DNA of 64,000 nucleotides from NCBI RefSeq assembly GCF_014334135.1, contig NZ_CP060497.1, positions 4,092,001 to 4,156,000 of the forward strand, given 5' to 3'. A model generated the notes under the pieces. The model saw nothing but the letters and a program-made list of their open reading frames with translations. It did no database searches and was not told the DNA's origin. The stretch comes from Olivibacter sp. SDN3. GTDB taxonomy: Bacteria > Bacteroidota > Bacteroidia > Sphingobacteriales > Sphingobacteriaceae. Numbering within the stretch: position 1 is the first letter of the stretch; the number at the start of each line of letters is the position of its first letter. Of this stretch, positions 24,707 to 41,847 are shown piece after piece. Made by a program: the position numbers and the translations under genes.

Positions 24707-25567
24707 TTACCCTAGGTAAGACTTTAAGATTTTACTCCGTGACGTATGTCTTAACCTTTGAAGTGCCTTGTCTTTAATTTGACGTACGCGTTCTCTGGTT
24801 AGATTGAAAGTTTCGCCTATTTCTTCTAACGATAATGGGTGATTGGAACCTAAGCCGAAGAACAATACGATGATTTCCCTTTCCCGCTCCGTTAAAGTGG
24901 CTAATGAACGTTTAATCTCTTCCGACAAGGATTCATCTATTAACGTACTGTCTGTATTCGGATCATGGTTCTCTAATACATCAAGTAGTGTGTTTTCTTC
25001 ACCTTGTACAAATGGTGCGTCCATCGAAACATGACGACCTGAATTGCTTAATGTATCAGAAATCTTATCTACAGTAGTTTCTAGAATATCTGCCAATTCC
25101 TCCGGAGAGGGTTCGCGCTCATATTCTTGCTCCAAACGAGAAAAAGCTTTACTGATTTTACTTAAAGAGCCAACTTGGTTTAATGGCAAACGTACAATAC
25201 GTGATTGTTCTGCGATAGCCTGCAAGATAGATTGACGGATCCACCATACAGCGTATGAAATAAACTTAAAACCTTTTGTTTCATCAAAGCGCTTGGCAGC
25301 TTTGATCAAACCTAAATTTCCTTCATTTATAAGGTCGCCTAGCGTTAACCCTTGATTTTGGTATTGCTTGGCTACAGATACAACGAAACGTAAATTTGTT
25401 TTAGTTAAACGTTCTAAAGCGGCTTGATCGCCTTCTCTGATTTTTTGAGCAAGAATTACTTCTTCCTCTGCAGTAATAAGGTCAACTTTACCAATCTCGT
25501 GTAAATACTTATCTAACGATTGCGATTCACGGTTAGTAATTGACTGTGTTATCTTGAGCTGTCTCAT
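24707..25567 (-). CDS. rpoD: Primary sigma factor (RpoD, short Bacteroidota form)
   Basis: 286 residues, the compact form typical of this phylum, lacking the long region 1.1. Region 1.2 ([18 protein letters not shown]), region 2 ([38 protein letters not shown] and the -10-binding [13 protein letters not shown]), region 3 and region 4 ([38 protein letters not shown]) are all present. It directs housekeeping transcription from TTTG/TAnnTTTG promoters, consistent with elements seen upstream of several genes here. Confidence 0.96.
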
Positions 25568-27274: not shown

Positions 27275-28753
27275 TTATGAAATTTGATGTGGGGCATGTT
27301 TATTACTGGTAATCATGAGTAGCAACCATGTTAAGAAGCCATTCAGTAAGATCAGCTCAAATCCAACAATATAACCAATACTATGTTGCAGCCAATAGTC
27401 GATGGCAAAGGTAAGTATTGGTGATAGAACACAGATGTATGGTGTAATCTTATCTCGTACAGTGCGTTTTGTAAGCATTCCGAAAGCAAACAGCCCCAAT
27501 AGAGGGCCGTAAGTATAGCCTGCTGCTACAAAAATAGCTATAACCACGGAGTCGTTATTTATTACACGAAATAGCAAGATGATCACCAGCATGAGGAGTG
27601 AGAAAGTAAAGTGAACTTTATTTCTGGTCTGAATAAGTTTTTTATCGTTCGGATCAACTTTTTTGTTAAAATTTAAGAAATCAACACAAAAGGAGGTGGT
27701 CAAAGCCGTTAATGCAGAATCGGTAGTAGCAAAGGTAGCGGCAGTTAGCCCTAACATAAAAATAATGCCGGGAACAATTGCTAGATGATTTAAGGCGATT
27801 TCAGGATATAGATGATCGGGAGTTCTTAAGGAATCAAAGTCTATACCATTTTTAGCCGCATAAATATATAAAAGAGCTCCGACGGAAAGAAAGAAAAGGT
27901 TAATAAAAACAAAAATAACAGTAAAAGTTAACATGTTCTTTTGTGCTTCACCAATTGTTTTCATACTCAAGTTCTTTTGCATGAGGTCTTGATCAAGCCC
28001 GGTCATTGCTATGGTGACAAATACACCTCCCAAAAACTGCTTCCAAAAATTAGATTTACTGCCCATAAAATCCTCCCAGAAGAAAATTTTTGAATAACTG
28101 CTATTCTTTACGGTCTCTATCGTCTGTAAGAAATTTAACCCTAAACTATCTGCTATGAAATATATGGAAAGAACAACCGATAATAGTAAGAAGAACGTTT
28201 GCAAAAGATCGGTAATAATAATCGTTTTCAACCCGCCTTTGTGCGTATAAAGCCAAATAAGGGCCAAACAGATTATAATGGTAAGCGCAAAGGGGACGTT
28301 CCAGGCATCAAATATAAAACGTTGCAATACAATTGCAACTAAGTAAAGCCTAAAGGCAGAGCTGATGGTTCTGGAAATCAAAAAAATCATTGCACCTGTT
28401 TTGTAACTGAGATACCCTAAGCGATGTTCCAGGTAGGTGTAGATAGAAACAAGATGCATCTTGTAGTAAAGGGGGAGTAATACCAGCGCTATAATAACGA
28501 AGCCTACAGCATTGCCTAATATGAACTGAAAATAAGCAAAACTTCCGTTTCCAACTGCTCCAGGTACGGATATGAAAGTCACACCAGACAATGCCGTACC
28601 GATCATTCCAAAAGCAACGATATACCATTTGGAATTTTTATTCGCGATGAAAAAGGTGGCATTGTCTGCAGACTTTTTGGAAGTGACGTGGGCAACGATC
28701 ACTAATACGCCAAAATAGATCAATAGAAAGCTAAATAAGGTTAGAGGCGCCAT
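27275..28753 (-). CDS. Sodium:solute symporter (SSS family)
   Basis: 492 residues with about 13 membrane segments, including the family block in segments 1-2 (GTALSGVTFISVPGAVGNGSF) and MTGLDQDLMQKNL, LGLTAATFATTDSALTALTTSF. Members carry sugars, sialic acids or amino acids with sodium. It lies 26 bp after murQ on the same strand, so it is probably the inner-membrane importer of MurNAc or a related amino sugar; that substrate is inference from context. Confidence 0.85.
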   Translation of the reverse strand: MAPLTLFSFLLIYFGVLVIVAHVTSKKSADNATFFIANKNSKWYIVAFGMIGTALSGVTFISVPGAVGNGSFAYFQFILGNAVGFVIIALVLLPLYYKMHLVSIYTYLEHRLGYLSYKTGAMIFLISRTISSAFRLYLVAIVLQRFIFDAWNVPFALTIIICLALIWLYTHKGGLKTIIITDLLQTFFLLLSVVLSIYFIADSLGLNFLQTIETVKNSSYSKIFFWEDFMGSKSNFWKQFLGGVFVTIAMTGLDQDLMQKNLSMKTIGEAQKNMLTFTVIFVFINLFFLSVGALLYIYAAKNGIDFDSLRTPDHLYPEIALNHLAIVPGIIFMLGLTAATFATTDSALTALTTSFCVDFLNFNKKVDPNDKKLIQTRNKVHFTFSLLMLVIILLFRVINNDSVVIAIFVAAGYTYGPLLGLFAFGMLTKRTVRDKITPYICVLSPILTFAIDYWLQHSIGYIVGFELILLNGFLTWLLLMITSNKHAPHQIS

Positions 28754-28779
28754 TCTTTTCTTTGTTTAACTGATGTATG

Positions 28780-29595
28780 TTAGGCTTTTATATCTTGAAT
28801 TTTCTCGATGGCTTTACGGACGCTCCCATATTCTTCCAATAGTTGGTTCGCTTTCTCTTGATTAACTCCGGTTTCTTGCATAATAATTCTAGCGCCTCTG
28901 TTAAATAGTTTGTTGTTGGTTAACTGCATATCAACCATTTTGTTGCCTTTTACCCTTCCTAATTTAATCATAATAGAAGTACTCAGCATATTTAGCACTA
29001 ACTTTTGCGCGGTGCCGGCTTTCATTCTGGTTGAGCCGGTTACGAATTCAGGACCGGTAATAACTTCAATAGGAAACTTGGCTACTTTTGCCACTGGTGT
29101 GTTAGCATTACATACTAAGCAAGCTGTTGTAATTCCAGCTTTATTTGCAGCCTCCAGTCCACCTATCACATACGGCGTACTTCCTGACGCGGCGATACCT
29201 AATACTACGTCGTTACTATTGATTCTATGTTCTGAAAGGTCTTTCCAAGCCTGCTCTTTATCGTCCTCCGCAAATTCAACCGCTTTTCGTATAGCATGGT
29301 CTCCGCCTGCAATGAGTCCCACAATCCAATCAAATGGTACCCCAAAGGTCGGTGGACACTCAGAGGCATCTAATATTCCCAATCTACCACTTGTTCCGGC
29401 ACCTATATAAAATAATCTGCCGCCTTCTTCCATCTTTGCCGCTGTAATGTTTACCACGGTTTCAATCTGTGGAATGGATTTTTCCACAATAGCGGGAACA
29501 GTTTGATCCTCTCTGTTAATGTTAGTAAGTAGTTCCTTAACTGACATTTTTTCCAAATCATTGTAGTTTGATTCTTTTTCAGTTGTATAATCCAT
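28780..29595 (-). CDS. murQ: N-acetylmuramic acid 6-phosphate etherase
   Basis: Cleaves the lactyl ether of MurNAc-6-phosphate to GlcNAc-6-phosphate and D-lactate. 271 residues with a SIS sugar-phosphate fold: IGAGTSGRLGILDASECPPTFGVP, the catalytic Glu region around DASECPPTFG, GIAASGSTPYVIGGLEAA and VTGSTRMKAGTAQKLVLNML. It heads a short operon with the symporter. TGCA repeats lie at 29640-29684, overlapping the likely promoter. The matching kinase (MurK or AnmK) is not in the window. Confidence 0.96.
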   Translation of the reverse strand: MDYTTEKESNYNDLEKMSVKELLTNINREDQTVPAIVEKSIPQIETVVNITAAKMEEGGRLFYIGAGTSGRLGILDASECPPTFGVPFDWIVGLIAGGDHAIRKAVEFAEDDKEQAWKDLSEHRINSNDVVLGIAASGSTPYVIGGLEAANKAGITTACLVCNANTPVAKVAKFPIEVITGPEFVTGSTRMKAGTAQKLVLNMLSTSIMIKLGRVKGNKMVDMQLTNNKLFNRGARIIMQETGVNQEKANQLLEEYGSVRKAIEKIQDIKA

Positions 29596-29636: not shown

Positions 29637-29684
29637 ATATGCATTTTTATGCATTTTTATATTTTAAATATAAATAAACATGCA
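29637..29684 (-). promoter_or_regulatory. Phased TGCA repeats in the murQ promoter
   Basis: TGCATTTTTA occurs twice head-to-tail (29640-29649 and 29650-29659), and a third TGCA is at 29681, 31 bp further on. The same spacing pattern is seen upstream of susC and deoR. On the minus strand the first copy reads AAATGCATATTTTAG and may overlap the -7 region. Likely operator, perhaps for the DeoR protein of this locus. Confidence 0.6.
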
Positions 29685-29686
29685 TA

Positions 29687-30331
29687 TTAAATCAATAACT
29701 CGTCAATCCTTTTGAAATTGTAGCCTTTCTCCATCAGTTTATTGAGGAGATGGGGCAATTTATTATAAAACTTATCCTTTCTCTTCGGCCCGGCGCCGAC
29801 ATGTATAAGCATAATAAATCCATTTAAATCCGTACTACTTTCTTTCTCGTAATGAAATATCGAATTCAGAATTACTTCAGACGAACGATAACTGTTTTCC
29901 ATTTCGGGGTATGTGTAGTCTGCTGCTGTCAATGTTCCGGGCGTAAAGTTAATTAATTGTAAATGATGTTTTGTTGTCCATTTACTTATTTCACTGTTAT
30001 ACCATTCATAAGGAGGAAGAAAGTAAGCGGCTTTCTGTTTATCTATTCCAAATGCTTGCATTTTTCGATATACTTCATTCAAATCATCACTAAATTCCTT
30101 CTCAGTAACCAACAAGCTATCTCGTTTTTTCCAATCGCAATATAGTAAATGTTGGTCGGAGTGCGCACCAATATAATGTCCGTCATTTATTATACGCTCA
30201 ATAGATGGTTTGTTTTCCCTGTTTGCATATAGCCGACCTGTAAAAAAGAAAGATGCCTTTACCTGATTATCTTTTAATACATCTAAAATGGTTTCTAAAC
30301 CTTCTGTATACTCATCTCCCGAAAAAATCAA
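29687..30331 (-). CDS. Polysaccharide deacetylase-like protein, N-terminus damaged
   Basis: 214 residues from a TTG at 30331. The fold is the NodB type: LIFSGDEYTEGLETILDVLKDN opens the domain, FFFTGRLY follows, then GAHSDQHLLYCDW, FLPPYEWYN and MLIHVGAGPKRKDKF. The open frame continues upstream to 30424 and encodes SCKKVTDSYGAVIRGDTTE, which looks like a mature lipoprotein start with lipid-bearing Cys (codon 30397-30395). There is no ATG, GTG or TTG in that extension and no signal peptide, and it overlaps the end of the GH9 gene. A deletion has probably removed the signal. Confidence 0.75.
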   Translation of the reverse strand: MIFSGDEYTEGLETILDVLKDNQVKASFFFTGRLYANRENKPSIERIINDGHYIGAHSDQHLLYCDWKKRDSLLVTEKEFSDDLNEVYRKMQAFGIDKQKAAYFLPPYEWYNSEISKWTTKHHLQLINFTPGTLTAADYTYPEMENSYRSSEVILNSIFHYEKESSTDLNGFIMLIHVGAGPKRKDKFYNKLPHLLNKLMEKGYNFKRIDELLI

Positions 30332-30384
30332 TGAAATATTCCTTTCAGTAGTATCACCACGTATAACAGCCCCATAACTGTCGG

Positions 30385-32211
30385 TTACTTTTTTGCACGA
30401 GCCACCTCCGATGACTCGTTTTCTTTAGCTGCGAGTAAATAAACTAATGATGCTGTTCCGTCCATCGTTGGTTCATTCGTACTATAGTCGCCATAATCAT
30501 CATGATAGACGACAAGTTCAGATTGAAATGAGGCGTATGTGTCAGGCTTATATAGGGTTATTCCAATAAGATTATTGTAAATATTCCCATATACAGGCCC
30601 GTCTACCAAACCACCATCAACAGGATAGTTATTCAGTTCTGTAAATGCAGAATGGGGCGCGGTAGGTGTGTCTCCCCATTCTGGCAAGCCATATACCATA
30701 CTAGTTCCCCAAGGATTACAACCGAAAAGCCAATCAATGTTAGCTTGTTCCAATGCCTTATAGGTGGCATCTTGCGTTAGTTGTCGGTATAAATAACACT
30801 GTATTGCAAAAGAAACTGTTAAATTGTTAGAGCACCATATAAATGGTACTCCTCTCAAAAAGGCATTTTTTTCTGCTTTTCGATTTATCTTTTCGATGCC
30901 TTCCTTATAGTAATCACTGAACTCTCCACTGGGTTCTGCATTTCCGTTGGCTATTTCGTAATGTCCAAAATTGTGAAAAGGATACCATTGATAATGCCTA
31001 GCGGTATCGGCTCCTAACCAGGCTGTGATTTTTTCTTTTCTTCCGTAATCTATCGCTTGTACTAAAAAGTGCCGCTCTTTGGTTAGTTTCCATAGGTTTA
31101 CAGCACCAAGTTGCATATCATCTTCCCAATTATCCTCTTCATAAAAATACGGTGCCATGTTAGGCGCTGTTTGGCATACCCCAGGTTTGGCTAACCCTAG
31201 GTGATATGCCGATAATGCTTTGTCTTTATAGATCATGGCTTCTCCATTATCTATATCTTTATATAACTGGGATGCGAGCGCGAAGGCGCTGGCAAACTTA
31301 CCGGCAGTAGAGGCAACTCCAGTAGTTCTATTTTTATGTTTACCTAAACCCTGTACTTCTCCGCTAGCGAAATATACGGGGCGAGGTCCACCGGATCCCA
31401 TCCCATAGTCGGTGGTGTCGTCGGTAGGCAGTCGCATCCCAGCATGATCACGGTCGTCGGCCAGTTGATTAAATAACCAATCTTCACGGGGATGCATTTT
31501 CTTTAACCATTTTAATCCCCAGGCAGCTTCGTCTAAGATATCCTCGATTCCGTTTTTTCCCGCTAAACCATTAGCTTGATAACGATCATCGAAAACCGAT
31601 TTAAAATCTCTATAGGCGGCCAGCAAATGATAGGTAGCGTTGGCGGTGGTGGTGCTGTACTGTAAGTAGTCAGAAGCGTCATGCCATCCGCCTGAAACAT
31701 CAATGATGGTGCTGTCTGGCATATGGCCGTACATCGTATAACCGTCTTGAGTGTGACAGGAGTCATTTAAGTAAGGGTTAAATCCACTACGTTGCTGCCG
31801 CATATAGCGGAGGGCGAAGTCGGCGGTTCCCTTGTATACGTCGTTAGCAATGCGGAATTCGGGAGATCTGATGGCGCCAGTTTTTAAATAGTATTTGCCG
31901 GTGTCGGTAAAAGCCGAAAAGTCCAATCTATATGTCTGTTGAAATGGCCCATATTTTCCATAGGGATCGCTCGCTTTCGCCTGATACACTTCCTTATTTG
32001 TTCGGGCGTCGACCAAGAAAAAGGAGTCGATGTTTCGCTCCTGAAGGGATCCCCAAACAGCTACTTTTACGCCTTTCGGGTAATAGCCCAGTTGGTTAAT
32101 ACGGATAACCGTTTTGGGTGCTTTATTGTCCTTTATTGTACACGAGGGGATACTAACCATCAAGCATAGGATAAATATTAAAACCGGTTTGAATAATCCT
32201 TTGGTTTTCAT
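30385..32211 (-). CDS. Glycoside hydrolase family 9 lipoprotein
   Basis: 608 residues. Lipoprotein signal ending at C24 (VSIPSC). An N-terminal immunoglobulin-like CelD domain (about 30-125, INQLGYYPKGVKVAVW) precedes an alpha-toroid GH9 domain with GGWHDASDY (D178 and D181, base and nucleophile region) and a C-terminal NEPTMDGTAS with E580 as probable acid. GH9 includes endoglucanases and exo-glucosaminidases. Beside NamZ, MurQ and a deacetylase, a glucosaminidase-like role on amino-sugar chains fits better than cellulose digestion, but this is inference. The last 10-12 residues may be an artefact of the deletion before the deacetylase gene. Confidence 0.87.
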   Translation of the reverse strand: MKTKGLFKPVLIFILCLMVSIPSCTIKDNKAPKTVIRINQLGYYPKGVKVAVWGSLQERNIDSFFLVDARTNKEVYQAKASDPYGKYGPFQQTYRLDFSAFTDTGKYYLKTGAIRSPEFRIANDVYKGTADFALRYMRQQRSGFNPYLNDSCHTQDGYTMYGHMPDSTIIDVSGGWHDASDYLQYSTTTANATYHLLAAYRDFKSVFDDRYQANGLAGKNGIEDILDEAAWGLKWLKKMHPREDWLFNQLADDRDHAGMRLPTDDTTDYGMGSGGPRPVYFASGEVQGLGKHKNRTTGVASTAGKFASAFALASQLYKDIDNGEAMIYKDKALSAYHLGLAKPGVCQTAPNMAPYFYEEDNWEDDMQLGAVNLWKLTKERHFLVQAIDYGRKEKITAWLGADTARHYQWYPFHNFGHYEIANGNAEPSGEFSDYYKEGIEKINRKAEKNAFLRGVPFIWCSNNLTVSFAIQCYLYRQLTQDATYKALEQANIDWLFGCNPWGTSMVYGLPEWGDTPTAPHSAFTELNNYPVDGGLVDGPVYGNIYNNLIGITLYKPDTYASFQSELVVYHDDYGDYSTNEPTMDGTASLVYLLAAKENESSEVARAKK

Positions 32212-32214
32212 TAA

Positions 32215-34053
32215 CTAGTATTTTAGACTGACAATTTTACCATCCATTGTACTTACCACCAATTTATTGCGTTTTATCGGTAATAGTGGGTTAATCAGGC
32301 AGTTGGATATTTTATATTGCCAAATTACCTTTCCAGATTGCCTACCAACGGCAGATAGTAAACCTGAATGGCTAGGAACCAGTATATTGTTGTTTGATTC
32401 TACGATGGCGGTTGGTGCTAATTCATAAGGAAGCCTGAGTGTAGACTGCCAGGCTATTTCCATGTCTGGAGCAGTTGTAGAGATCCCTATAAGCTGCCCG
32501 TCCATCGTTTTTGCGTATATCAATAAGCTATCAGTAGAAAGGCCAATTGATTCCCTGACCCTGTAGTCGTCTAATTGTTTTCGCCAAATAAGCTCTCCGT
32601 TCTCTGCGTCCAGTGCTGTCATATAGCGATCTGGTGCAACTATAAAGATCCGCCCGTTTGTAGCCACGGGATAACATGCTGCAGGTGATAACATCCGGCT
32701 TGTAGCTCCATTATGCCATTCCCATTTTTTTTCTCCGGTGGAAATATCCAAAGCATAAAATTCATTTCCCCAGGTGCCGAAATAGACTATATTGTTGTAT
32801 ACCGTTGGTTTAGCGGAGAGGTAACCTTTTAAACCTTCAAAGGTCCATAAAACATCGCCGTCAGTCACACGTATAGCCCTAAAAGTTCCATCTGACCCGC
32901 CAATGTAGGCGATCCCTTTTTCAATTGATGGCGATCCCAGAACCGCTTTCTGCGTCTCTATTTTCCACTTTAACGAACCGCTTTTTAGGTCGATGCCATA
33001 AATATAATTGTCGCTTGAGCCAACCACTACCGTATTCTTCCACACGGCCGGCGTTGAATATATTTTGCCTTTGGTTTTAAACTGCCATAATTTTTTGCCA
33101 CTCTTGGCATTTATAGCGTAGACCTCACCGTTAGTGTTTCCGCTAACAATTTTATTTTTTGCATAAGCCATACCTGCACCAACATCACTTTTATCTTCAA
33201 ATATCCATGCTTGCTTAACAGCGCTATATTTTCTATTAATCGAATAATCCGGACGCGGGTATCCGTTCGGCGACTGATCAAAATGGTGATTGTGCAATTT
33301 AACGCTATGCCAAGGTTTGTGTGTTATACTGTCTGGGGTTCGTTCCTGACATGTAGCTTCTTCTGAGGAAATCGTCACGATATTATAGCCTCCGGTTTCC
33401 TGCTCAGCTCGCAGGTTTGAACGACCCATAACGCCGGGTATACCCTCAAAATCATAGCTTTCGTTAATATGACCATGTCCACATAACATTAAGCGTATAT
33501 CGTGCTTTTTTAATCGATCAATGGATTCGTACCAATTGTTTAAGGAAGAATCCTGTGGGTAGTGATTTACATAAATTAAGGGCAATTCCGGATCAATTGC
33601 GAGTATAGAATCCATCCATACCAAGTTTTCTCTTGGTATTTGACCAGGCCCCATACGCATGTTGGGTCCGGAGTTTGTCCCTGCAAAACGATAGCCATCA
33701 TGGATGAAATAAAATGTTTCATCACCAAAAATTTTTCGAAAGCTATTTCCCCCGCTTTCAGACCAGTTCGTGTCGTGATTGCCGGGCACTAGGTAATAGG
33801 GGTTGTGTAAACTATCGAGTATTTGTTTGGCTAAGGTCAGCTCTTCATCGGAACCAAATTCGGTGATATCTCCGGAGATGATAATAAACTGAATTTCATT
33901 GTTCTGGTTGATGTCTTTTATCGTTCTTCTTAAATCTTCCGCACCTGTTTTGCTGCCAATATGAGTGTCGGTTACATGAGCAAACTTAAAATGTTGCGCA
34001 TGGGATGTTAAAAACGGAAATAAAAGGATAAGTATGCTGTTTAGTATTTTCAT
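32215..34053 (-). CDS. Exported metallophosphoesterase fused to a PQQ-type beta-propeller
   Basis: 612 residues with a signal peptide (about 1-19). The N-terminal calcineurin-like domain (20-270) shows HVTDTHIG, ISGDITEFG, PGNHDTNW, VNHYP and CGHGH, the two-metal centre. The C-terminal half (290-612) has repeated blades such as VYAINAKSGKKLWQFKTKG, IYGIDLKSGSLKWKIE and FYALDISTGEKKWEW, usual for PQQ-like propellers. It may remove phosphate from a cell-wall fragment or polymer; substrate unknown. It lies 12 bp after namZ and 3 bp before the GH9 gene, so all three share a transcript. Confidence 0.87.
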   Translation of the reverse strand: MKILNSILILLFPFLTSHAQHFKFAHVTDTHIGSKTGAEDLRRTIKDINQNNEIQFIIISGDITEFGSDEELTLAKQILDSLHNPYYLVPGNHDTNWSESGGNSFRKIFGDETFYFIHDGYRFAGTNSGPNMRMGPGQIPRENLVWMDSILAIDPELPLIYVNHYPQDSSLNNWYESIDRLKKHDIRLMLCGHGHINESYDFEGIPGVMGRSNLRAEQETGGYNIVTISSEEATCQERTPDSITHKPWHSVKLHNHHFDQSPNGYPRPDYSINRKYSAVKQAWIFEDKSDVGAGMAYAKNKIVSGNTNGEVYAINAKSGKKLWQFKTKGKIYSTPAVWKNTVVVGSSDNYIYGIDLKSGSLKWKIETQKAVLGSPSIEKGIAYIGGSDGTFRAIRVTDGDVLWTFEGLKGYLSAKPTVYNNIVYFGTWGNEFYALDISTGEKKWEWHNGATSRMLSPAACYPVATNGRIFIVAPDRYMTALDAENGELIWRKQLDDYRVRESIGLSTDSLLIYAKTMDGQLIGISTTAPDMEIAWQSTLRLPYELAPTAIVESNNNILVPSHSGLLSAVGRQSGKVIWQYKISNCLINPLLPIKRNKLVVSTMDGKIVSLKY

Positions 34054-34065
34054 CTGAGGTAGTGT

Positions 34066-35319
34066 TTATTGGAAATCTGTGTACAGAAGATATTTCTTAC
34101 GCATATTTCTATAATCACGAAGTTCGTCTTGCCAGGTGTCCGCAATTTGCTCTTCCGTCATCCCAGCTTTTATCTGTTTGATGAGTTGGTCGTTACCGGC
34201 AAGTTTGTTAAAAAATTCGGGACGGGAAAAGAACTTGTCGGCAAAACCTGCTTTTTTTGATTTATTGTAAAAGTCAATCAGGTATTTTAAGGTAAATGTA
34301 GCATCAACGGCGTCTTCTTCTCTCAGATCTATGCCATAGCAGGTTTTTCCCTGCTGCTCAACGTGCGCACTCATTCCGGGTTTTGATCCTGGATTAAACG
34401 TGAAATCACCAAACTCAGGGTCCGGGTAACCCAACACCTGAAAAGGCCAGTCTGTCCCCCTGCCCACATTGATGTCTGTTCCTTCAAATAAACATAGCGA
34501 CATATACAGGCGTACAGATAAATAGTTAGGTAGGCTAGGGGATGGGACTACTGGTAATTCATATTTGGTATTATGATCCCAATTTTTAACAGGAATGACC
34601 GTTAAATCACATTGTTTGCCATCTTCCAGCCAGCCCTCACCATTAATCATTTGGGCTAATTCTCCCACGGTTAAACCATGTATCATGGCTATTTTATGAT
34701 AACTTACATTGGATTTGAATTTATCATCTTTTCTCACGGGACCGTTCACTTGGTCGCCATTTGGATTAGGTCTGTCTAGTACTATCAGTTTTTTATTTTG
34801 ATTAACACATAACTGCATCACGCGATGCATGGACGTGATATAGGTATAAAAGCGGGCACCAACGTCTTGTAGGTCAAAAATCATAACATCGATAGATGCA
34901 ACGATAGAGTCGGCCTTTTCATTTTTTCCGTATAAACTGTGCAGAGGCAATCCGGTTTTTTCATCCAAATCATTTGCCACTTTTTCGCCACGTTCTATGC
35001 TGCCCCGAAAACCATGTTCAGGGGCAAAAGCGAATTGCAGGTCAACGTTATTTGCTAATAAAACATCAACCAGATGCTTTTCGTCAGGACCTACAATGGA
35101 GGTTTGATTACCCATTAACCCTACTTTTTTCCCCTCAAGCAGGGGAAGGTAAGCCGCTGTCTGGTCGGCCCCCGTAAGTATGGTAGCATTGGTTTCTGAT
35201 GAGGTGCTTTTTAACTTTTTGTTTTCTTTATCGGCATTATTTGAGGCACCCTGGGTACAGGCGGTATGGAAACAAATAACTGCTAAAACGAAAAATCTGA
35301 AATACTTTTTATTTATCAT
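34066..35319 (-). CDS. namZ: Exo-beta-N-acetylmuramidase, NamZ type (DUF1343/GH171)
   Basis: 417 residues, lipoprotein (C21, CFHTAC). DUF1343 proteins related to NamZ release MurNAc from the non-reducing ends of peptidoglycan chains. Conserved stretches: LLEGKKVGLMGNQTS, FAPEHGFRG, FDLQDVGARFYTYITSM, VLDRPNPNG, PSPSLPNY and LFEGTDINVGRGTDWPFQV, the last two being the most typical. It follows susD after a large hairpin. The lipid anchor and SusCD neighbours suggest outer-surface or periplasmic release of MurNAc for uptake and cleavage by MurQ. Confidence 0.88.
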   Translation of the reverse strand: MINKKYFRFFVLAVICFHTACTQGASNNADKENKKLKSTSSETNATILTGADQTAAYLPLLEGKKVGLMGNQTSIVGPDEKHLVDVLLANNVDLQFAFAPEHGFRGSIERGEKVANDLDEKTGLPLHSLYGKNEKADSIVASIDVMIFDLQDVGARFYTYITSMHRVMQLCVNQNKKLIVLDRPNPNGDQVNGPVRKDDKFKSNVSYHKIAMIHGLTVGELAQMINGEGWLEDGKQCDLTVIPVKNWDHNTKYELPVVPSPSLPNYLSVRLYMSLCLFEGTDINVGRGTDWPFQVLGYPDPEFGDFTFNPGSKPGMSAHVEQQGKTCYGIDLREEDAVDATFTLKYLIDFYNKSKKAGFADKFFSRPEFFNKLAGNDQLIKQIKAGMTEEQIADTWQDELRDYRNMRKKYLLYTDFQ

Positions 35320-35350
35320 AATAATGCGCTTGTCGTCAAAAAAGAATTTT

Positions 35351-35424
35351 TGGCAAACATCGATAAATGTTATTTATATGCTGCTTACAGCAATAGCATT
35401 TAAATAACATTTATCGATGTTTGC
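35351..35424. repeat. 31-bp inverted repeat between susD and namZ
   Basis: Left arm 35351-35381 (GGCAAACATCGATAAATGTT...) and right arm 35394-35424 are complementary at 30 of 31 positions around a 12-base loop. It can form a very stable hairpin in the operon RNA. There is no long T-run after it, so it is more likely an RNA-stability or processing element, or a partial terminator, than a simple terminator. Confidence 0.85.
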
Positions 35425-35515
35425 CACTGGAATTTATTTTATTGTAGATGAAAATATAAGTTTATTTTGTCTTTTGCCAAAGGATTTTTATGTTAAATAA
35501 TTTTTGATCTGTTTA

Positions 35516-37216
35516 TTACCATCCTGGATTTTGTACTAATTCCGAACCATTTTCACGGTAAAGTGTAATTTGATCAATTGGTAGTGGATCCAGGTAATAT
35601 TTGTCATTGTCAAATAGGCGTTGTGACTCTGCCCGGTAAGCTGGAACAATATAGCCCTCATTACCTGTTCTATCCAGCATCAGGTCATTTAGTGGTTCGG
35701 AATAGTCGGACTTATTTATCCATGCACCCATGTTCATGGTCTCATTCCCTCTGGTATCCACATACTCTAGCTTTTTCCAGCGGCGCAAATCATTATATCG
35801 CTGTCCTTCAAACATGAGTTCTATGCGACGTTCTCTCCTTATTTCCCAAATGATACCGGGCACTGTTGGGTCTCGTTCGGGATCGTCATAAACCGCACCA
35901 TTTACCATGGCCTGATTACCCGAAACCTCCAGGGGCGGCATTTCACTACCGCCCCGGGCACGCAATACGTTGATCGATTTGTCGAGGTCCTCCTGAGTTA
36001 GATTACCCAATTCTGCAGCTGCCTCAGCGTAGTTGATCAGCACTTCACCATAACGCATCACCGGTGCGTCGGTGATGTTCAGGGAGCCGCTCCCTTCCGG
36101 CAGTGTTGCCAGCCCATCATTTAAGAATTTGTGTGACATATAGGCGCTGGATGAGTAGGGGGCGTGGACGCCCTGAACGTTCAGCGTAGAACGAAGGGTG
36201 GCCGTCATACGGGGGTCGCGGTTAGCGAGTATCTGCTCAATGCTTCGATCGCCCTGATAACGGGGAGACAGTTCGATGGGCAAACCATCATCACATAGGT
36301 AACTTTCAACTGCATTGCGGGAGATACCTGTTTGCGATTCGCGGTTGTTATACGACATGTGAGAGTGCGTTAGAATGCCCGCCTCATACTGTCTGAAAAG
36401 TATAATTTCGGCATTGCCGGAAAGGTCGGTCGACGTAAAGACCTCCCTATAGTCTGCATGTAGATTGTATCTTCCGGAACTGATGAGCTCATCGGCTGCC
36501 CATTTTGCTGCTTCAAGGTAAGTGGCAGCGCGTTCCTGATCGATATCGTGGTATTTTAACCAGGTACCTTCAAAAAGGAATACCTTTGACATATAAGCTA
36601 ATACGACGTCTTTGTTAACGGATAGTTTTGCTGTTCCATCGCTAATTCTGACATGTTCTGCGGCAAACTGAAAATCTTCCAGTACGCGATCCATGACTCC
36701 CGTACGTGGATCCCGTGGCCGATAGAGTTCAGGATCATCTTCTTCCAATTCCTGATCGTACCAGGGCACATCTCCATAAGCATTCACCAGATCGGCATAG
36801 GCCATTCCCCGGAAAAAACGTGCTATGCCCGTCCAATGTTGAATGGCTTCTTCTTCCATGGGAACTTGAGGGATACGACTGATATAAATATTCGCCCTTC
36901 TAACCGATTCAAAATTCCAATTGGCGTCGTCGTTCGTGGGAACATTGAGCGGAAACTGTGCTGGCGCCGTTGGCGCAAAATCATCAATCATATCCTGACT
37001 TCCGAACCAAAAAGGTCCCCAACCATACCCGGCGCCATAGCCCATAAAAAACTCCCGATAAAAGCGATAGGAGAACGTTTCTACATTGCCTTCATTGCTC
37101 CAGAAATTATCATCGGTCATACTATCCAAAGGCTCGCGTTCCAGAAAATCTTTTTTACAATTGCTGAAGGTTAAGATACCGATCAGTAAAACCCATTTAT
37201 ATATGTACTTTTTCAT
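35516..37216 (-). CDS. SusD/RagB-family glycan-binding lipoprotein
   Basis: 566 residues; lipoprotein signal with C20 (ILTFSNC) then KKDFLEREPLDSMTDDNFW, the standard SusD start. TPR-like helices (ARFFRGMAYADLVNAYGDVPWYD) and the C-terminal WEIRRERRIELMFEGQRYNDLRRWKKL identify the family. It sits on the cell surface as the lid over the SusC channel and catches the glycan or muropeptide. It starts 12 bp after susC. The ligand is inferred from neighbours to be amino sugar-containing. Confidence 0.95.
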   Translation of the reverse strand: MKKYIYKWVLLIGILTFSNCKKDFLEREPLDSMTDDNFWSNEGNVETFSYRFYREFFMGYGAGYGWGPFWFGSQDMIDDFAPTAPAQFPLNVPTNDDANWNFESVRRANIYISRIPQVPMEEEAIQHWTGIARFFRGMAYADLVNAYGDVPWYDQELEEDDPELYRPRDPRTGVMDRVLEDFQFAAEHVRISDGTAKLSVNKDVVLAYMSKVFLFEGTWLKYHDIDQERAATYLEAAKWAADELISSGRYNLHADYREVFTSTDLSGNAEIILFRQYEAGILTHSHMSYNNRESQTGISRNAVESYLCDDGLPIELSPRYQGDRSIEQILANRDPRMTATLRSTLNVQGVHAPYSSSAYMSHKFLNDGLATLPEGSGSLNITDAPVMRYGEVLINYAEAAAELGNLTQEDLDKSINVLRARGGSEMPPLEVSGNQAMVNGAVYDDPERDPTVPGIIWEIRRERRIELMFEGQRYNDLRRWKKLEYVDTRGNETMNMGAWINKSDYSEPLNDLMLDRTGNEGYIVPAYRAESQRLFDNDKYYLDPLPIDQITLYRENGSELVQNPGW

Positions 37217-37228
37217 GATTTCGTCAAT

Positions 37229-40200
37229 TTATAGCGTTGCTTGTATACCAAATGAAAATGTTCTGCGGTAAGGATAGACCCGTCCGAAGGTATTGGGGTC
37301 ATTTTCGCCGAGATCCGTATAATCCACCTCGGGATCAATGGGAACATCGAGGTTATCAAATTCAAACAGGTTCTCTCCGCTAAAGAAAACCCTTACCCTT
37401 TGCATCTTGATTTTATCTGTCAAGTGTTCCGGTAGTGTATAACCGAATGTGAGATTCTTCAGTCGCAAATAAGACATGTCTAATAAATATCTCGTTTGTG
37501 GCATCATGTTTCTTACCCCGTTGCTTTGATTATGCATGGTTGGCCGGGGATAAAAGGCATTAGGGTTATCTTCGGTCCAGTAATCCATTTGGTGTTCAAA
37601 CCATGCCTCTTCGTTTCGGAAGCCGGGAACGAACATGCTACCAGACGCCCAAAGGTCGCGTTTTGCTACGCCTTGCAAAAAGAACCCTAGGTCAAAACCC
37701 TTATAAGCAAAATCCATACGTAAACCATAGAAATAGCGCGGTGTGGTATTCCCGATAACCCGTCGATCGCCCGGGTTTTCTGCCGTTCCATCACCCACAT
37801 CGATTACGCCATCTCCGTTGAGGTCGCGGTATTTCACGTCACCCGGACCATAAAAGAAGTTTCCCGCCTCATAAAAACTTTGATCGGCTATTCCCGGAAC
37901 GAGGATATAGCGGCCATTATCGGTAGTAATCAGGTTTCCGTTGGCATCCTGTTGAAAATCGTCACGGGTAAAGAAACGATCGGTTTCATAGCCCCATATC
38001 TCGCCTAGCACTTTGCCTTGATAATGACTGTCTGAGGTACCTGTGGTACTGATATTCGAGATATCCTCATATTTTGTGATCTTTTCGGTGAAATCGCTCA
38101 ACTGACCACGCACGCTGATATTCAGTCCATTATTAAAGGCGTGTTGATAGCCGAGTTCCAGTTCCCAACCATTGGTTTGCATTTCACCGAAATTTCGTAC
38201 TGGCGATTGGGCTCCGAAACTGTTTGGAAGCGTTATGCCCGGCGACAACATGTTACTAATCGTTCTTCTATAGCGATTAAATACGAGGTTTAACTTATCG
38301 TCAAAGAAGTTAGCATCCAGACCGATCTCTTTTGTTGTAAGCGTTTCCCAGGTTAAGGTACTTGATACCGGGACAGGGCTGTCAATTGTTGGTACAAAGG
38401 CGTCGCCGATCAGCCATTGTCCGTTAACATTTGAAGTCGGCGTCATGGGCATGGTCGATAGGAATCGATTGAGGCCTACTTCCTGCTGACCAACACTTCC
38501 ATAGGAAGCACGTATTTTAAAGAAACTGAGGTAAGGTTTAGCAAAATCCATGAAGGCTTCTTCAGACAGTACATAACCCGCAGATGCGGAAGGGAAGAAG
38601 CCCCAGTTGTCATTCATCGGGAAGCGGGAAGAACCATCATAACGCCCGATCAACTCCAGTAAATATTTGTTTTTATAATCGTAGTTAATCCGCGCAAAGT
38701 AGCCTAAGGTAGACCATTGCCTGGCTTCGCTATTGACGGTTTGCTGTCCGGTTGCCAGTGGTAGTTCCGGCATTTCCGAGTCCATAAGGCCCAAGCGTTG
38801 TGCCGTTTGACCGCCCATACGGAATGTTTCCATATTGAGACCGCCGGTCAGTTTCATGTGATGATCTTGAATGGACTTATCATACGTAGCATACGCATTT
38901 ACCACGTGTCTATTCTCTTTCCTGTTGGTAAATGCTACGCGGTTATGTGCATCCGAGGTGAAAGTCCGGTAGGTTAGTCCGCCGCCATCCCAAAAATCCA
39001 GACCGGAAACCCATCCACCATTGATATGATCCTGTTGATTGAAGGCGGTAAAGCTATAGTCGGCATCCAGGGTAAGTCCGGGTAATAAATTAAGCTTAGC
39101 GCCTAACGTTATTCTCGTCATATCATTTTTAAAAGTATTCATTTGTGCCTGTTCCACTTCCGTAATGGAATTACGCAAGGGTTCACCGTCGATGGTACCA
39201 TAAGGGAAAGTTTTTGGCCAACGATAGAGATAAAACCAGGGGTCGTAAATATCGCCGCCAAACGAATATGGTTGGTTATAATTTGTATTGGAATAGAGCA
39301 CTTTGGTAAACACGTCCAGGTATTTGTTTACGGAAGCGTTCAGTCCTAAGTTTAAATTGTAACGTTCAAATTTATCGGGATTGACTTTTAATACACCGCC
39401 TTCATTTAAATAACCCAAGCCTAAATTGTAGTTGATATTTTCGCTTCCGCCGCTGAAACCAAGATTGTGATTTTGCTGCGGCGTGCTGTTGCGCATATAC
39501 ATTTCCGGGGCATCCCATGGGCGGTAAAAATAGAGTCCGCCGCCCCGCATCTCCCAGTCACGTCCTTCCACCATCTCCATTCCGAGATTTTGGCCACCAT
39601 ATAAAGATTCCCATTCCCGCATACGTTCAATGGCAATATCATCAATGCGCGTACCAACTACCGATACAAATTCCTGTGAAGGGTTTTCTCTTCTTGCAGC
39701 AGCTAGCTGAGCGCTTGCGCCTTCAGCTGCAGGAGCGATATTCGGTGTTTTTGTTGGTTTCTGCCAGGCCAGGTTATTGCTGTATTCAACGCGTGTGGGA
39801 GTATTTCGCTTACCTGATTTTGTCGTAATCAAAATAACACCAAAGGCTGCCCGGGTACCATAAATCGCAGCGGCAGCATCTTTTACGACAGACATGCTTT
39901 CGATGTCATTTGGATTAACCATATTGAGGCTGGGTACTTCCACATTATCTACCAGAATTAAAGGGGCGGCTCCTGCGTCGCCGGCATTGAGTGATCCGGT
40001 TACGCCACGTAACCGGATCGTGGGATTCTGCCCTAAGGCACCGCTGGGAGTGGAGATATTCAATCCGGCAACGGCACCTTGAAGTCCGCGGGCAACGTCA
40101 GTGATCGGGCGTGTTTGCAGTGTCTTTTCTACATCAACAGTGGATACCGCACCCGTTAATGACGTCCTTTTCTGCGTTCCAAACCCCACCACCACTACTT

Positions 40201-40513
40201 CTTCTAACGCTCGTTGATCGTCGTCTAAGGAAATGTTAATAAGATCTTCGCTATCGGTAACGATAACCTCTCTACTTTCAGATCCAACGAAGGTGAAAAT
40301 CAACGTCTGGCCAACATCCGCGCGGATGTTATAATTTCCCTGTGCATCTGTCCCAACTCCTTGATTGGTTTCTTTAACCTTTACCGAAACACCCGGTAAA
40401 GGCGATTGATCTTTGGCAGAGCTTACCCTACCGGTAATTGTTTTTTCCTGGGCCAGTACATGGACTGCCACAAATAAAAATCCCATAAAAAACAGGAGTA
40501 GTCTTTTCTTCAT
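37229..40513 (-). CDS. SusC/RagA-family TonB-dependent outer membrane transporter
   Basis: 1094 residues. Signal peptide to about residue 21, a carboxypeptidase-regulatory-like domain (KTITGRVSSAKDQSPLPGVSVKV), a TonB-box-like EEVVVVGFGTQ, the plug (GAVSTVDVEKTLQTRPITDVARGLQG, IRLRGVTG, VVKDAAAAIYGTRAAFGVILITTK) and a 22-strand barrel ending in FSFGIQATL. It imports the ligand captured by SusD. It is first in the minus-strand operon susC-susD-namZ-phosphoesterase-GH9-deacetylase. The upstream region carries phased TGCA repeats. Confidence 0.96.
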   Translation of the reverse strand: MKKRLLLFFMGFLFVAVHVLAQEKTITGRVSSAKDQSPLPGVSVKVKETNQGVGTDAQGNYNIRADVGQTLIFTFVGSESREVIVTDSEDLINISLDDDQRALEEVVVVGFGTQKRTSLTGAVSTVDVEKTLQTRPITDVARGLQGAVAGLNISTPSGALGQNPTIRLRGVTGSLNAGDAGAAPLILVDNVEVPSLNMVNPNDIESMSVVKDAAAAIYGTRAAFGVILITTKSGKRNTPTRVEYSNNLAWQKPTKTPNIAPAAEGASAQLAAARRENPSQEFVSVVGTRIDDIAIERMREWESLYGGQNLGMEMVEGRDWEMRGGGLYFYRPWDAPEMYMRNSTPQQNHNLGFSGGSENINYNLGLGYLNEGGVLKVNPDKFERYNLNLGLNASVNKYLDVFTKVLYSNTNYNQPYSFGGDIYDPWFYLYRWPKTFPYGTIDGEPLRNSITEVEQAQMNTFKNDMTRITLGAKLNLLPGLTLDADYSFTAFNQQDHINGGWVSGLDFWDGGGLTYRTFTSDAHNRVAFTNRKENRHVVNAYATYDKSIQDHHMKLTGGLNMETFRMGGQTAQRLGLMDSEMPELPLATGQQTVNSEARQWSTLGYFARINYDYKNKYLLELIGRYDGSSRFPMNDNWGFFPSASAGYVLSEEAFMDFAKPYLSFFKIRASYGSVGQQEVGLNRFLSTMPMTPTSNVNGQWLIGDAFVPTIDSPVPVSSTLTWETLTTKEIGLDANFFDDKLNLVFNRYRRTISNMLSPGITLPNSFGAQSPVRNFGEMQTNGWELELGYQHAFNNGLNISVRGQLSDFTEKITKYEDISNISTTGTSDSHYQGKVLGEIWGYETDRFFTRDDFQQDANGNLITTDNGRYILVPGIADQSFYEAGNFFYGPGDVKYRDLNGDGVIDVGDGTAENPGDRRVIGNTTPRYFYGLRMDFAYKGFDLGFFLQGVAKRDLWASGSMFVPGFRNEEAWFEHQMDYWTEDNPNAFYPRPTMHNQSNGVRNMMPQTRYLLDMSYLRLKNLTFGYTLPEHLTDKIKMQRVRVFFSGENLFEFDNLDVPIDPEVDYTDLGENDPNTFGRVYPYRRTFSFGIQATL

Positions 40514-41103
40514 TGTAGATTGATTTTAAGGGGTGATATGTAGGATTAATTAAGTTCATCTTCGTGCCATATATTTAAAGCTAAGTCGCTTTTGTTCTCG
40601 AAAAATCCCGATCAGCTTAATACACAAGTCGCCTTAAAAATGCGTAGGTCTTTTTATTGGTTATCGCTGTACAATAATAAGTAATCTACTTTGATTATGC
40701 AAGTTTGTGCATTTTTACTTTTTAAAAACTAAGTAAATATGCATTTAAATGGCTATTTTAATGCAATTTTATGCATTATGTATTATGTTTGTGTTAAAAA
40801 TAGATTGTTTTATTAATTCGCTTTATATTTTAAACTAATAAGCTGTTTCTTGTGGCTTTTTACCTATTAACTCCTAACCAACAGGCCCCATATATCTGCG
40901 TGGTATCAGGGTATGTCTTACTTTTAATCAGCATTTTCCCGATAAACCCTGATAGATCCCGATATAATCGGCGATTTTGGTCAGAAGTTAATTTGTGTTT
41001 GTTTACTATGGTTTTATACTATTGCATTGCCCAACTATAAGTGAAGGGATGAATGTTGATAAAAAAAATTATATTTACGATTCATATTAATTTTAACTGG
41101 GAT
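40514..41103. other. Divergent regulatory region between susC and deoR-family gene
   Basis: 590 bp without a convincing gene. The main feature is the cluster of TGCA repeats at 40697-40781, described separately. A short open frame at about 40852-41040 starts with TTG and looks non-coding. Nothing else is recognised. Confidence 0.5.
40697..40781. promoter_or_regulatory. Phased TGCA repeats between susC and deoR
   Basis: TGCA words start at 40698, 40708, 40740, 40762 and 40772. Two pairs are exactly 10 bp apart (TGCAAGTTTG TGCATTTTTA and ATGCAATTTT ATGCATTATG), and 40708 to 40740 is 32 bp, close to the 31 bp seen at murQ. Probable operator array for the adjacent DeoR-family protein. Confidence 0.6.
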
Positions 41104-41847
41104 ATGCTAAAAGAAGAAAGGCAGGCATTTATTATACATGAAGTTAATCTGCATAATAAAGTATTGTCATCAGATCTGAGTGTTCAGCTTAATGTATCGG
41201 AAGACACAATACGTAGAGATTTGAATGAACTGGCTGAAAGTGGGAAAGTGCTGAAAGTCTATGGAGGAGCTTTGTCAAAATCGTTTCAGTATCCATTTCA
41301 GGACAACGAGGTTTACGCGCGAGAATCCAAAAAGAGCATAGCGCAAAAGGCTATAACACTTATACAGGATGGTATGGCAGTGTTATTGGGAGGTGGTACT
41401 ACCATGTTAGAACTTGCACGAATGGTGCCAGAAAAAATGCAGTGTACTTTTTTTACAATCAGCCCGCTTGTAGCGCTCGAATTAGCAGAACGATCTGAAG
41501 ACGATGTGATCTTAATAGGAGGTAAGTTAGCAAGAAGCACAAATGTAACAATCGGTTCGCAGGTAATCAATCAACTTTCCGAAATCAGAGTGGATTTATG
41601 TTTATTGGGTACCAATAGTCTTTCTGTAGAAGATGGCGTAACTGATTCTGATTGGGAAGTGGTACAGATAAAAAAAGCGATGCTAAGATGCTCTCAGAAA
41701 ACAGGTATTCTCAGTATAGCCGAAAAGTTAAATTCGGTACAAAAAATGAAAGTCTGTAATGTAAATGCGATTGACTATCTAGTGACTGATCTCGATCCCT
41801 TACATGATAGTTTGGCTAGATTTTCTCAGGTCGTAAAGATTATATAA
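41104..41847 (+). CDS. DeoR-family transcriptional regulator
   Basis: 247 residues from the ATG at 41104 (MLKEERQAFI); an upstream ATG at 41053 would add 17 residues unlike the family. The N-terminal winged helix-turn-helix has the DeoR signature (SSDLSVQLNVSEDTIRRDLNELAESGKVLKVYGGA). The C-terminal sugar-phosphate sensor shows DGMAVLLGGGTTMLELAR, LIGGKLARSTNVTIG and GTNSLSVEDGVTDSDWEVVQIK. Family members are usually relieved by a phosphorylated sugar. Divergent from susC, it is the natural candidate to control the locus, with MurNAc-6-P or GlcNAc-6-P as possible effector (inference). Confidence 0.92.
   Translation: MLKEERQAFIIHEVNLHNKVLSSDLSVQLNVSEDTIRRDLNELAESGKVLKVYGGALSKSFQYPFQDNEVYARESKKSIAQKAITLIQDGMAVLLGGGTTMLELARMVPEKMQCTFFTISPLVALELAERSEDDVILIGGKLARSTNVTIGSQVINQLSEIRVDLCLLGTNSLSVEDGVTDSDWEVVQIKKAMLRCSQKTGILSIAEKLNSVQKMKVCNVNAIDYLVTDLDPLHDSLARFSQVVKII

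Follow-up and report, generated by a model that had tools for sequence, protein, structure and literature searches.

Which protein controls the MurNAc utilisation genes of Olivibacter, and do the TGCA words repeated at two promoters of this locus form its operator? The window, meaning the whole 64,000-nucleotide stretch of DNA that was analysed, spans positions 4092001-4156000 of a 6.1-Mb Olivibacter genome, whose relatives include O. domesticus, O. jilunii, O. sitiensis and Olivibacter sp. XZL3. It carries a minus-strand peptidoglycan/MurNAc utilisation cluster (susC, susD, namZ, PQQ protein, GH9, deacetylase, murQ and symporter), with deoR on the opposite strand at 41104. The genes are listed below.

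27275-28753, minus strand: sodium:solute symporter, MurT-like by context (Pfam)
28780-29595, minus strand: murQ, MurNAc-6-phosphate etherase, opening the second putative regulated unit (NCBIfam TIGR00274, 333.9 bits against a cut-off of 302)
29687-34053, minus strand: three genes of the susC unit, for a metallophosphatase/PQQ-propeller protein, GH9 and a polysaccharide deacetylase (Pfam)
34066-35319, minus strand: namZ, exo-beta-N-acetylmuramidase (Pfam; NamZ_N 238.3 bits, NamZ_C 107.7 bits)
35516-37216, minus strand: susD (Pfam)
37229-40513, minus strand: susC, an outer-membrane transporter of the SusC/RagA type, opening its putative regulated unit (domain search)
41104-41847, plus strand: DeoR-family regulator with HTH_DeoR and DeoRC domains, the proposed binder (Pfam)

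The locus was assigned to MurNAc utilisation by a murQ above the curated cut-off together with NamZ and a transporter. A MurNAc kinase (BadF/BcrA-type MurK) was absent beside murQ and the symporter (27275-29595), and the only match in this genome to PF01869, the MurK family, scored below the cut-off and lay far off at C1:3882329. The fused metallophosphatase and PQQ/BamB-like propeller protein (32215-34053) is retained in most such MurNAc loci across genera.

The regulator matched HTH_DeoR (PF08220) with 56.3 bits (cut-off 21) and DeoRC (PF00455) with 134.5 bits (cut-off 31.8). Its start is Met 41104 rather than 41053, because conservation among orthologues, which align from residue 16-18 of the longer frame, begins at that methionine; the automatic open reading frame, with the additional 41053-41103, is 17 codons too long. 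The protein fell below the NCBIfam equivalog cut-offs of the characterised DeoR subfamilies (GlpR, AgaR, SrlR, UlaR) and of the DeoR model, with a best subfamily score of 159.4 bits against 300 (haloarchaeal GlpR) and 117.8 against 260 for AgaR, and a PDB search returned no match at E <= 0.001. No other transcription factor was found among the cluster genes; the nearest other one seen was a sigma-70 family factor at 24707-25567.

The sequence-only reading had located TGCA words starting at 29640, 29650 and 29681 by murQ and at 40698, 40708, 40740, 40762 and 40772 between susC and deoR. All of these positions proved exact, as did the repetition of the core TGCATTTTTA at 29640, 29650 and 40708 and the further word found 31 bp (29650 to 29681) or 32 bp (40708 to 40740) from a 10-bp pair. 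Since the genes at both sites lie on the minus strand, this lone word stands upstream of the pair, and inverted. The candidate operator and promoter elements are as follows.

29640-29653, minus strand: murQ operator pair with its two half-sites spaced by 10 bp, AA-TGCATAAAAATGCA-TATT (conserved in four other Olivibacter species)
29675-29684, minus strand: inverted half-site TGCATGTTTA, 31 bp upstream of the murQ pair (TGCR at -30/-31 in 5 of 5 Olivibacter murQ promoters)
40672-40679, minus strand: predicted susC -7 box TATTATTG (from sequence; consensus TAnnTTTG)
40698-40711, minus strand: proximal operator pair of susC, TGCACAAACTTGCA, in which the second half-site reads TTGCA and overlies the presumed -33 element
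40734-40743, minus strand: single half-site TGCATATTTA, 32 bp upstream of the proximal susC pair (from sequence)
40762-40775, minus strand: distal operator pair of susC, TGCATAAAATTGCA, six helical turns or 64 bp further upstream than the proximal one (from conservation)

The word offsets at susC in the window (0, 10, 42, 64 and 74) are near whole helical turns. Taken alone, the repeats inside the window are weak evidence, barely above chance: TGCA-N6-TGCA occurred three times against 1.23 expected, a count reached in 15 of 100 shuffles, and TGCATTTTTA three times against 0.56 expected, with 2 of 100 shuffles as good. Window counts being insufficient, the significance of the repeats derives from their conservation in relatives. 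Pattern searches of the whole genome returned 102 instances of TGCA-N6-TGCA; ten had an all-A/T spacer, two of them here and another two in the promoter of a different DeoR-family operon. The earlier concern that such pairs might appear at many unrelated AT-rich sites was not borne out, as the promoter-placed pairs found were confined to the MurNAc locus and the operons of two DeoR paralogues with the same recognition helix, and the other matches fell within coding frames or outside promoters.

The MurNAc cluster is also present in O. domesticus, O. jilunii and XZL3, and O. sitiensis has the murQ half, beside deoR. Amid otherwise diverged DNA, the footprint persists in four other species of the genus at murQ, and in three at susC and the susC paralogues. 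On the sense strand the murQ sites read AATGCATAAAAATGCATATT in the window and AACGCATAAAAATGCATATT, AACGCACAAAAATGCATATC, AACGCATAAAAATGCATATA and AACGTATAAAAATGCATATC (O. sitiensis) elsewhere, the pair in the four other species being YG(C/T)ATAAAAATGCATAT or CGCACAAAAATGCATAT; the sites at susC, and at the susC paralogues between susC and deoR, take the form YGCAHAANNTTGCAW. Because the murQ and susC sites vary in this way, the half-site is YGCA. The 10-bp spacing of the original proposal therefore stands, but its strict TGCA word does not: read on the minus strand, the sense strand of these genes, the half-site is YGCA-W-AAA, of which TGCA is one spelling. In 6.3 kb of non-coding Olivibacter DNA, AT-rich YGCA-N6-YGCA occurred 12 times against 0.2 expected under a Markov-1 model. 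TGCR lay 30-32 bp upstream in 12 of 17 Olivibacter pairs (at exactly 31 in nine), with any other offset seen at most twice, and a second susC pair 63 bp upstream was also found in O. domesticus (L188) and Olivibacter sp. XZL3 (L190). Other Olivibacter loci (L188/L189, L190, L192) have one or two extra susC-type units with the same operator between the MurNAc susC and deoR; the window strain has none there.

Relatives yielded the same sites when scanned with a weight matrix built from 17 Olivibacter sites; as the training set of this matrix overlaps with them, we relied instead on spacing counts in loci fetched later. The pattern YGCA-N6-YGCA, with at most one G/C in the spacer, was counted in the non-coding parts of murQ regions no longer than 20 kb. 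In 20 DeoR-linked murQ regions outside Olivibacter, 22 pairs were spaced by 10 bp, whereas the other spacings between 7 and 16 gave zero to two each (Markov expectation 0.7), and 27 murQ regions from genomes without the DeoR orthologue yielded one pair in 54 kb of non-coding DNA (expectation 1.4). Counted by locus, a pair was present in 13 of 20 linked regions, the remaining seven being without a strict pair, versus 1 of 27 without the orthologue (Fisher p = 6e-6), and among loci fetched once the pattern had been fixed in 10 of 14 versus 1 of 20 (p = 7e-5); these p values overstate independence because the compared genomes share ancestry. Linked and orthologue-free murQ loci both occur within one genus (label g18). 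Sites in the linked loci precede susC, namZ, murQ, the PQQ protein or deoR itself, and in one (L280) a site separates deoR from a second, divergently transcribed murQ.

The deoR gene adjoins murQ or susC in many genomes of the family. Among 24 susC promoters, the pair was found in all six within DeoR-linked MurNAc loci and in none of the 18 others. TGCA pairs were missing upstream of the deoR orthologues of most Sphingobacterium; this result, initially adverse, was resolved once the promoters of susC and murQ were considered and CGCA was allowed. Where the orthologue is not beside murQ, in Sphingobacterium and Parapedobacter, strict pairs near murQ were rare (four in 15.5 kb), which counts against the proposal.

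Two further observations concern these loci. L279 and L280 carry a second, diverged murQ (46% identical), divergent beside the DeoR orthologue. An 8-bp-spaced element resembling CTTTATTATGCAATTTTGCATNGCTTAT, perhaps the site of another regulator or a promoter, occurs in the non-coding DNA of several murQ loci without this DeoR:

L208, position 6736: CTTTATTATGCAATTTTGCATNGCTTAT-like element
L210, position 9348: CTTTATTATGCAATTTTGCATNGCTTAT-like element
L291, position 11891: CTTTATTATGCAATTTTGCATNGCTTAT-like element
L295, position 7348: CTTTATTATGCAATTTTGCATNGCTTAT-like element
L304, position 11999: CTTTATTATGCAATTTTGCATNGCTTAT-like element
L305, position 7895: CTTTATTATGCAATTTTGCATNGCTTAT-like element

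The same counts bear on the notion that the words are only phased A/T tracts or promoter elements with no specific binder. In favour of that explanation, the sequence is AT-rich and the presumed -33 box makes up part of the susC motif, but the conserved part is YGCA at a single spacing, and the YGCA pair is missing from all 18 unlinked susC promoters and almost entirely so from regulator-free loci. We regard this explanation as extremely improbable.

A second line of evidence concerns the recognition helix. Two paralogues in the same genome, paralogue 1 (C1:3989135, with an MFS transporter) and paralogue 2 (C1:4267999), share the helix VSEDTIRRD with the 41104 protein. At the paralogue 1 operon, four TGCA words are spaced by 10, 8 and 10 bp, forming a dyad (C1:3987852-3987884; L258 7851-7886). 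At the deoR of paralogue 2, TGCA words are spaced by 32 and 10 bp (C1:4267952-4267966; L259 5951-5970), the layout seen in the MurNAc locus, and both operons are likely self-regulated. Paralogues 3 and 4, with the helix VS-S/G-VTIRKD, had no pair in their operon promoters. Across 44 DeoR-family genes from these genomes, a pair was found within 2.5 kb upstream in 11 of 12 with an SEDT helix (SEDT-I/V-RRD), 1 of 25 with other helices and 0 of 7 with SDDT (SEDT versus other, p = 1.6e-7, with independent events fewer than counted, as the genes fall in related sub-families). That the motif follows the DNA-reading helix is the best evidence for the binder short of a binding assay.

A shared helix could also let one of these paralogues, alone or in competition, be the main binder at the MurNAc locus, given that both have TGCA pairs at their own operons. 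This is improbable: the motif in murQ loci tracks the 41104 orthologue, which is linked to the locus in many genera, and the flanks differ, being TTTGCAA at paralogue 1 sites versus AAYGCAT at the MurNAc locus. Another candidate type is an AraC-type or hybrid two-component regulator, one monomer of which would touch two grooves 10 bp apart, and the sub-sites of AraC-family monomers do have a similar spacing. Against it, the locus holds no such gene and its sites lack the 21-bp period of the AraC-family operator, the motif tracks the DeoR recognition helix, and AraC-type rhamnose regulators, including that of Bacteroides, use direct repeats with a 21-bp period (PMC3870299). Such a binder is thus very improbable.

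The words are instead very probably operator half-sites of the DeoR-family protein at 41104-41847, through which the susC and murQ units would be jointly controlled. Both proposals of the sequence-only reading, an operator for this protein and a single regulon, are supported by the spacing, the conservation, the co-occurrence with the orthologue, the unlinked susC promoters that lack the pair and the agreement of the helices, which point to this protein or to another carrying its helix. Comparison between loci bears out the motif itself, its spacing and conservation, and its association with the regulator and recognition helix.

The promoters suggest how such a protein might act. Bacteroidota promoters have a -33 element. 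The flavobacterial sigma-A -7 consensus is TAnnTTTG, at -12 to -5 (PMC9723704). Positioned by it, the susC half-sites would lie at about -35 and -45, with the third at about -75, and the proximal one (TTGCA) would coincide with the presumed -33 TTG. Transcription of susC is predicted to start at ~40667, giving a leader of ~150 nt (40514-40667), similar in length to those of the paralogous susC units. In nine susC-type promoters of Olivibacter there is a TAnn(n)TTG box with its TTG 26-27 bp after the second TGCA; at murQ, 45-60 bp separate the pair from the start codon, and the weak -7 box varies in position (distance about 21 to 30 bp).

This geometry would in part suit the same protein, on the same sites at about -35/-45, acting as an activator that recruits RNA polymerase in the presence of the sugar phosphate: the constant distance to the -7 TTG in the nine susC-type promoters is as in class II activators, and the -7 boxes deviate from consensus. 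We nevertheless consider activation, the main rival to repression, unlikely, in view of the variable distance at murQ, the coincidence of the half-site with a TTG matching the -33 element, and the fact that carbohydrate-related members of the DeoR family are mostly repressors. RhaR of Rhizobium is one such repressor (PMC3870299). Repression is the probable mode, and is preferred because a protein on the presumed -33 element would exclude RNA polymerase.

Our model is as follows. The functional unit would be a tandem YGCA-N6-YGCA, its 10-bp period equal to one helix turn. About three turns further upstream the array adds an inverted half-site, and the susC promoter has a second pair at six turns; with this turn-phased spacing, every contact would face the same side of the helix. 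The sites are most likely occupied by a DeoR multimer, possibly with looping, which blocks RNA polymerase, jointly repressing the uptake and degradation unit starting susC-susD-namZ and the murQ-symporter unit. Relief would most likely come from a MurNAc-derived sugar phosphate of the pathway, MurNAc-6-P or the MurQ product GlcNAc-6-P, bound by the DeoRC domain; we infer this ligand from that domain and from the pathway.

Several known systems resemble parts of this model. E. coli GlpR, DeoR and AgaR bind several phased operators as multimers and are released by a phosphorylated metabolite; the protein described here shares the family architecture and, as proposed, the phased multi-site operators, the multimer and the sugar-phosphate release, but differs in half-site words and targets, with only distant sequence similarity. 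MurNAc-6-P etherase is likewise under control in E. coli, where MurR governs murQP, but MurR is of the RpiR/SIS family, and its operator is unrelated to the DeoR case. DeoR-family rhamnose regulators have their own words in a common layout of two imperfect direct repeats with a 10-11 bp period before sugar-utilisation operons, which the 10-bp spike fits, but the MurNAc operator differs from that of RhaR in its YGCA-W-AAA word, its SusCD peptidoglycan locus, its inverted half-site at 31 bp and its second pair at 63 bp (PMC3870299). In Tannerella forsythia, MurNAc uptake by another member of the Bacteroidota relies on murTKQ, in which MurT, of the same superfamily as the sodium:solute symporter, accompanies MurQ; a kinase gene lies there between transporter and murQ, unlike in the Olivibacter locus, and the paper mentions no regulator (PMC5790795). 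A regulon reconstruction in B. thetaiotaomicron mentions neither DeoR nor muramic acid (PMC3878776), and our literature search found no DeoR/MurNAc operator for Bacteroidota. The operator thus apparently has not been described before, though its general type is known; the finding is well supported, useful and unsurprising.

Collectively, these findings suggest a testable operator and regulon for peptidoglycan-sugar scavenging in a large family of soil Bacteroidota, for which the papers searched gave no account of MurNAc control. More tentatively, and with slightly less than even confidence, we propose that one helix signature (SEDT-I/V-RRD) reads YGCA-N6-YGCA across a whole set of DeoR paralogues in Sphingobacteriaceae while a multimer wraps or loops a defined higher-order array, its proximal contact on the -33 element. 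If this reading of the helix is true, operators would be predictable from the helix alone, and the helix-to-operator rule would predict targets of the other DeoR-type regulators in these genomes.
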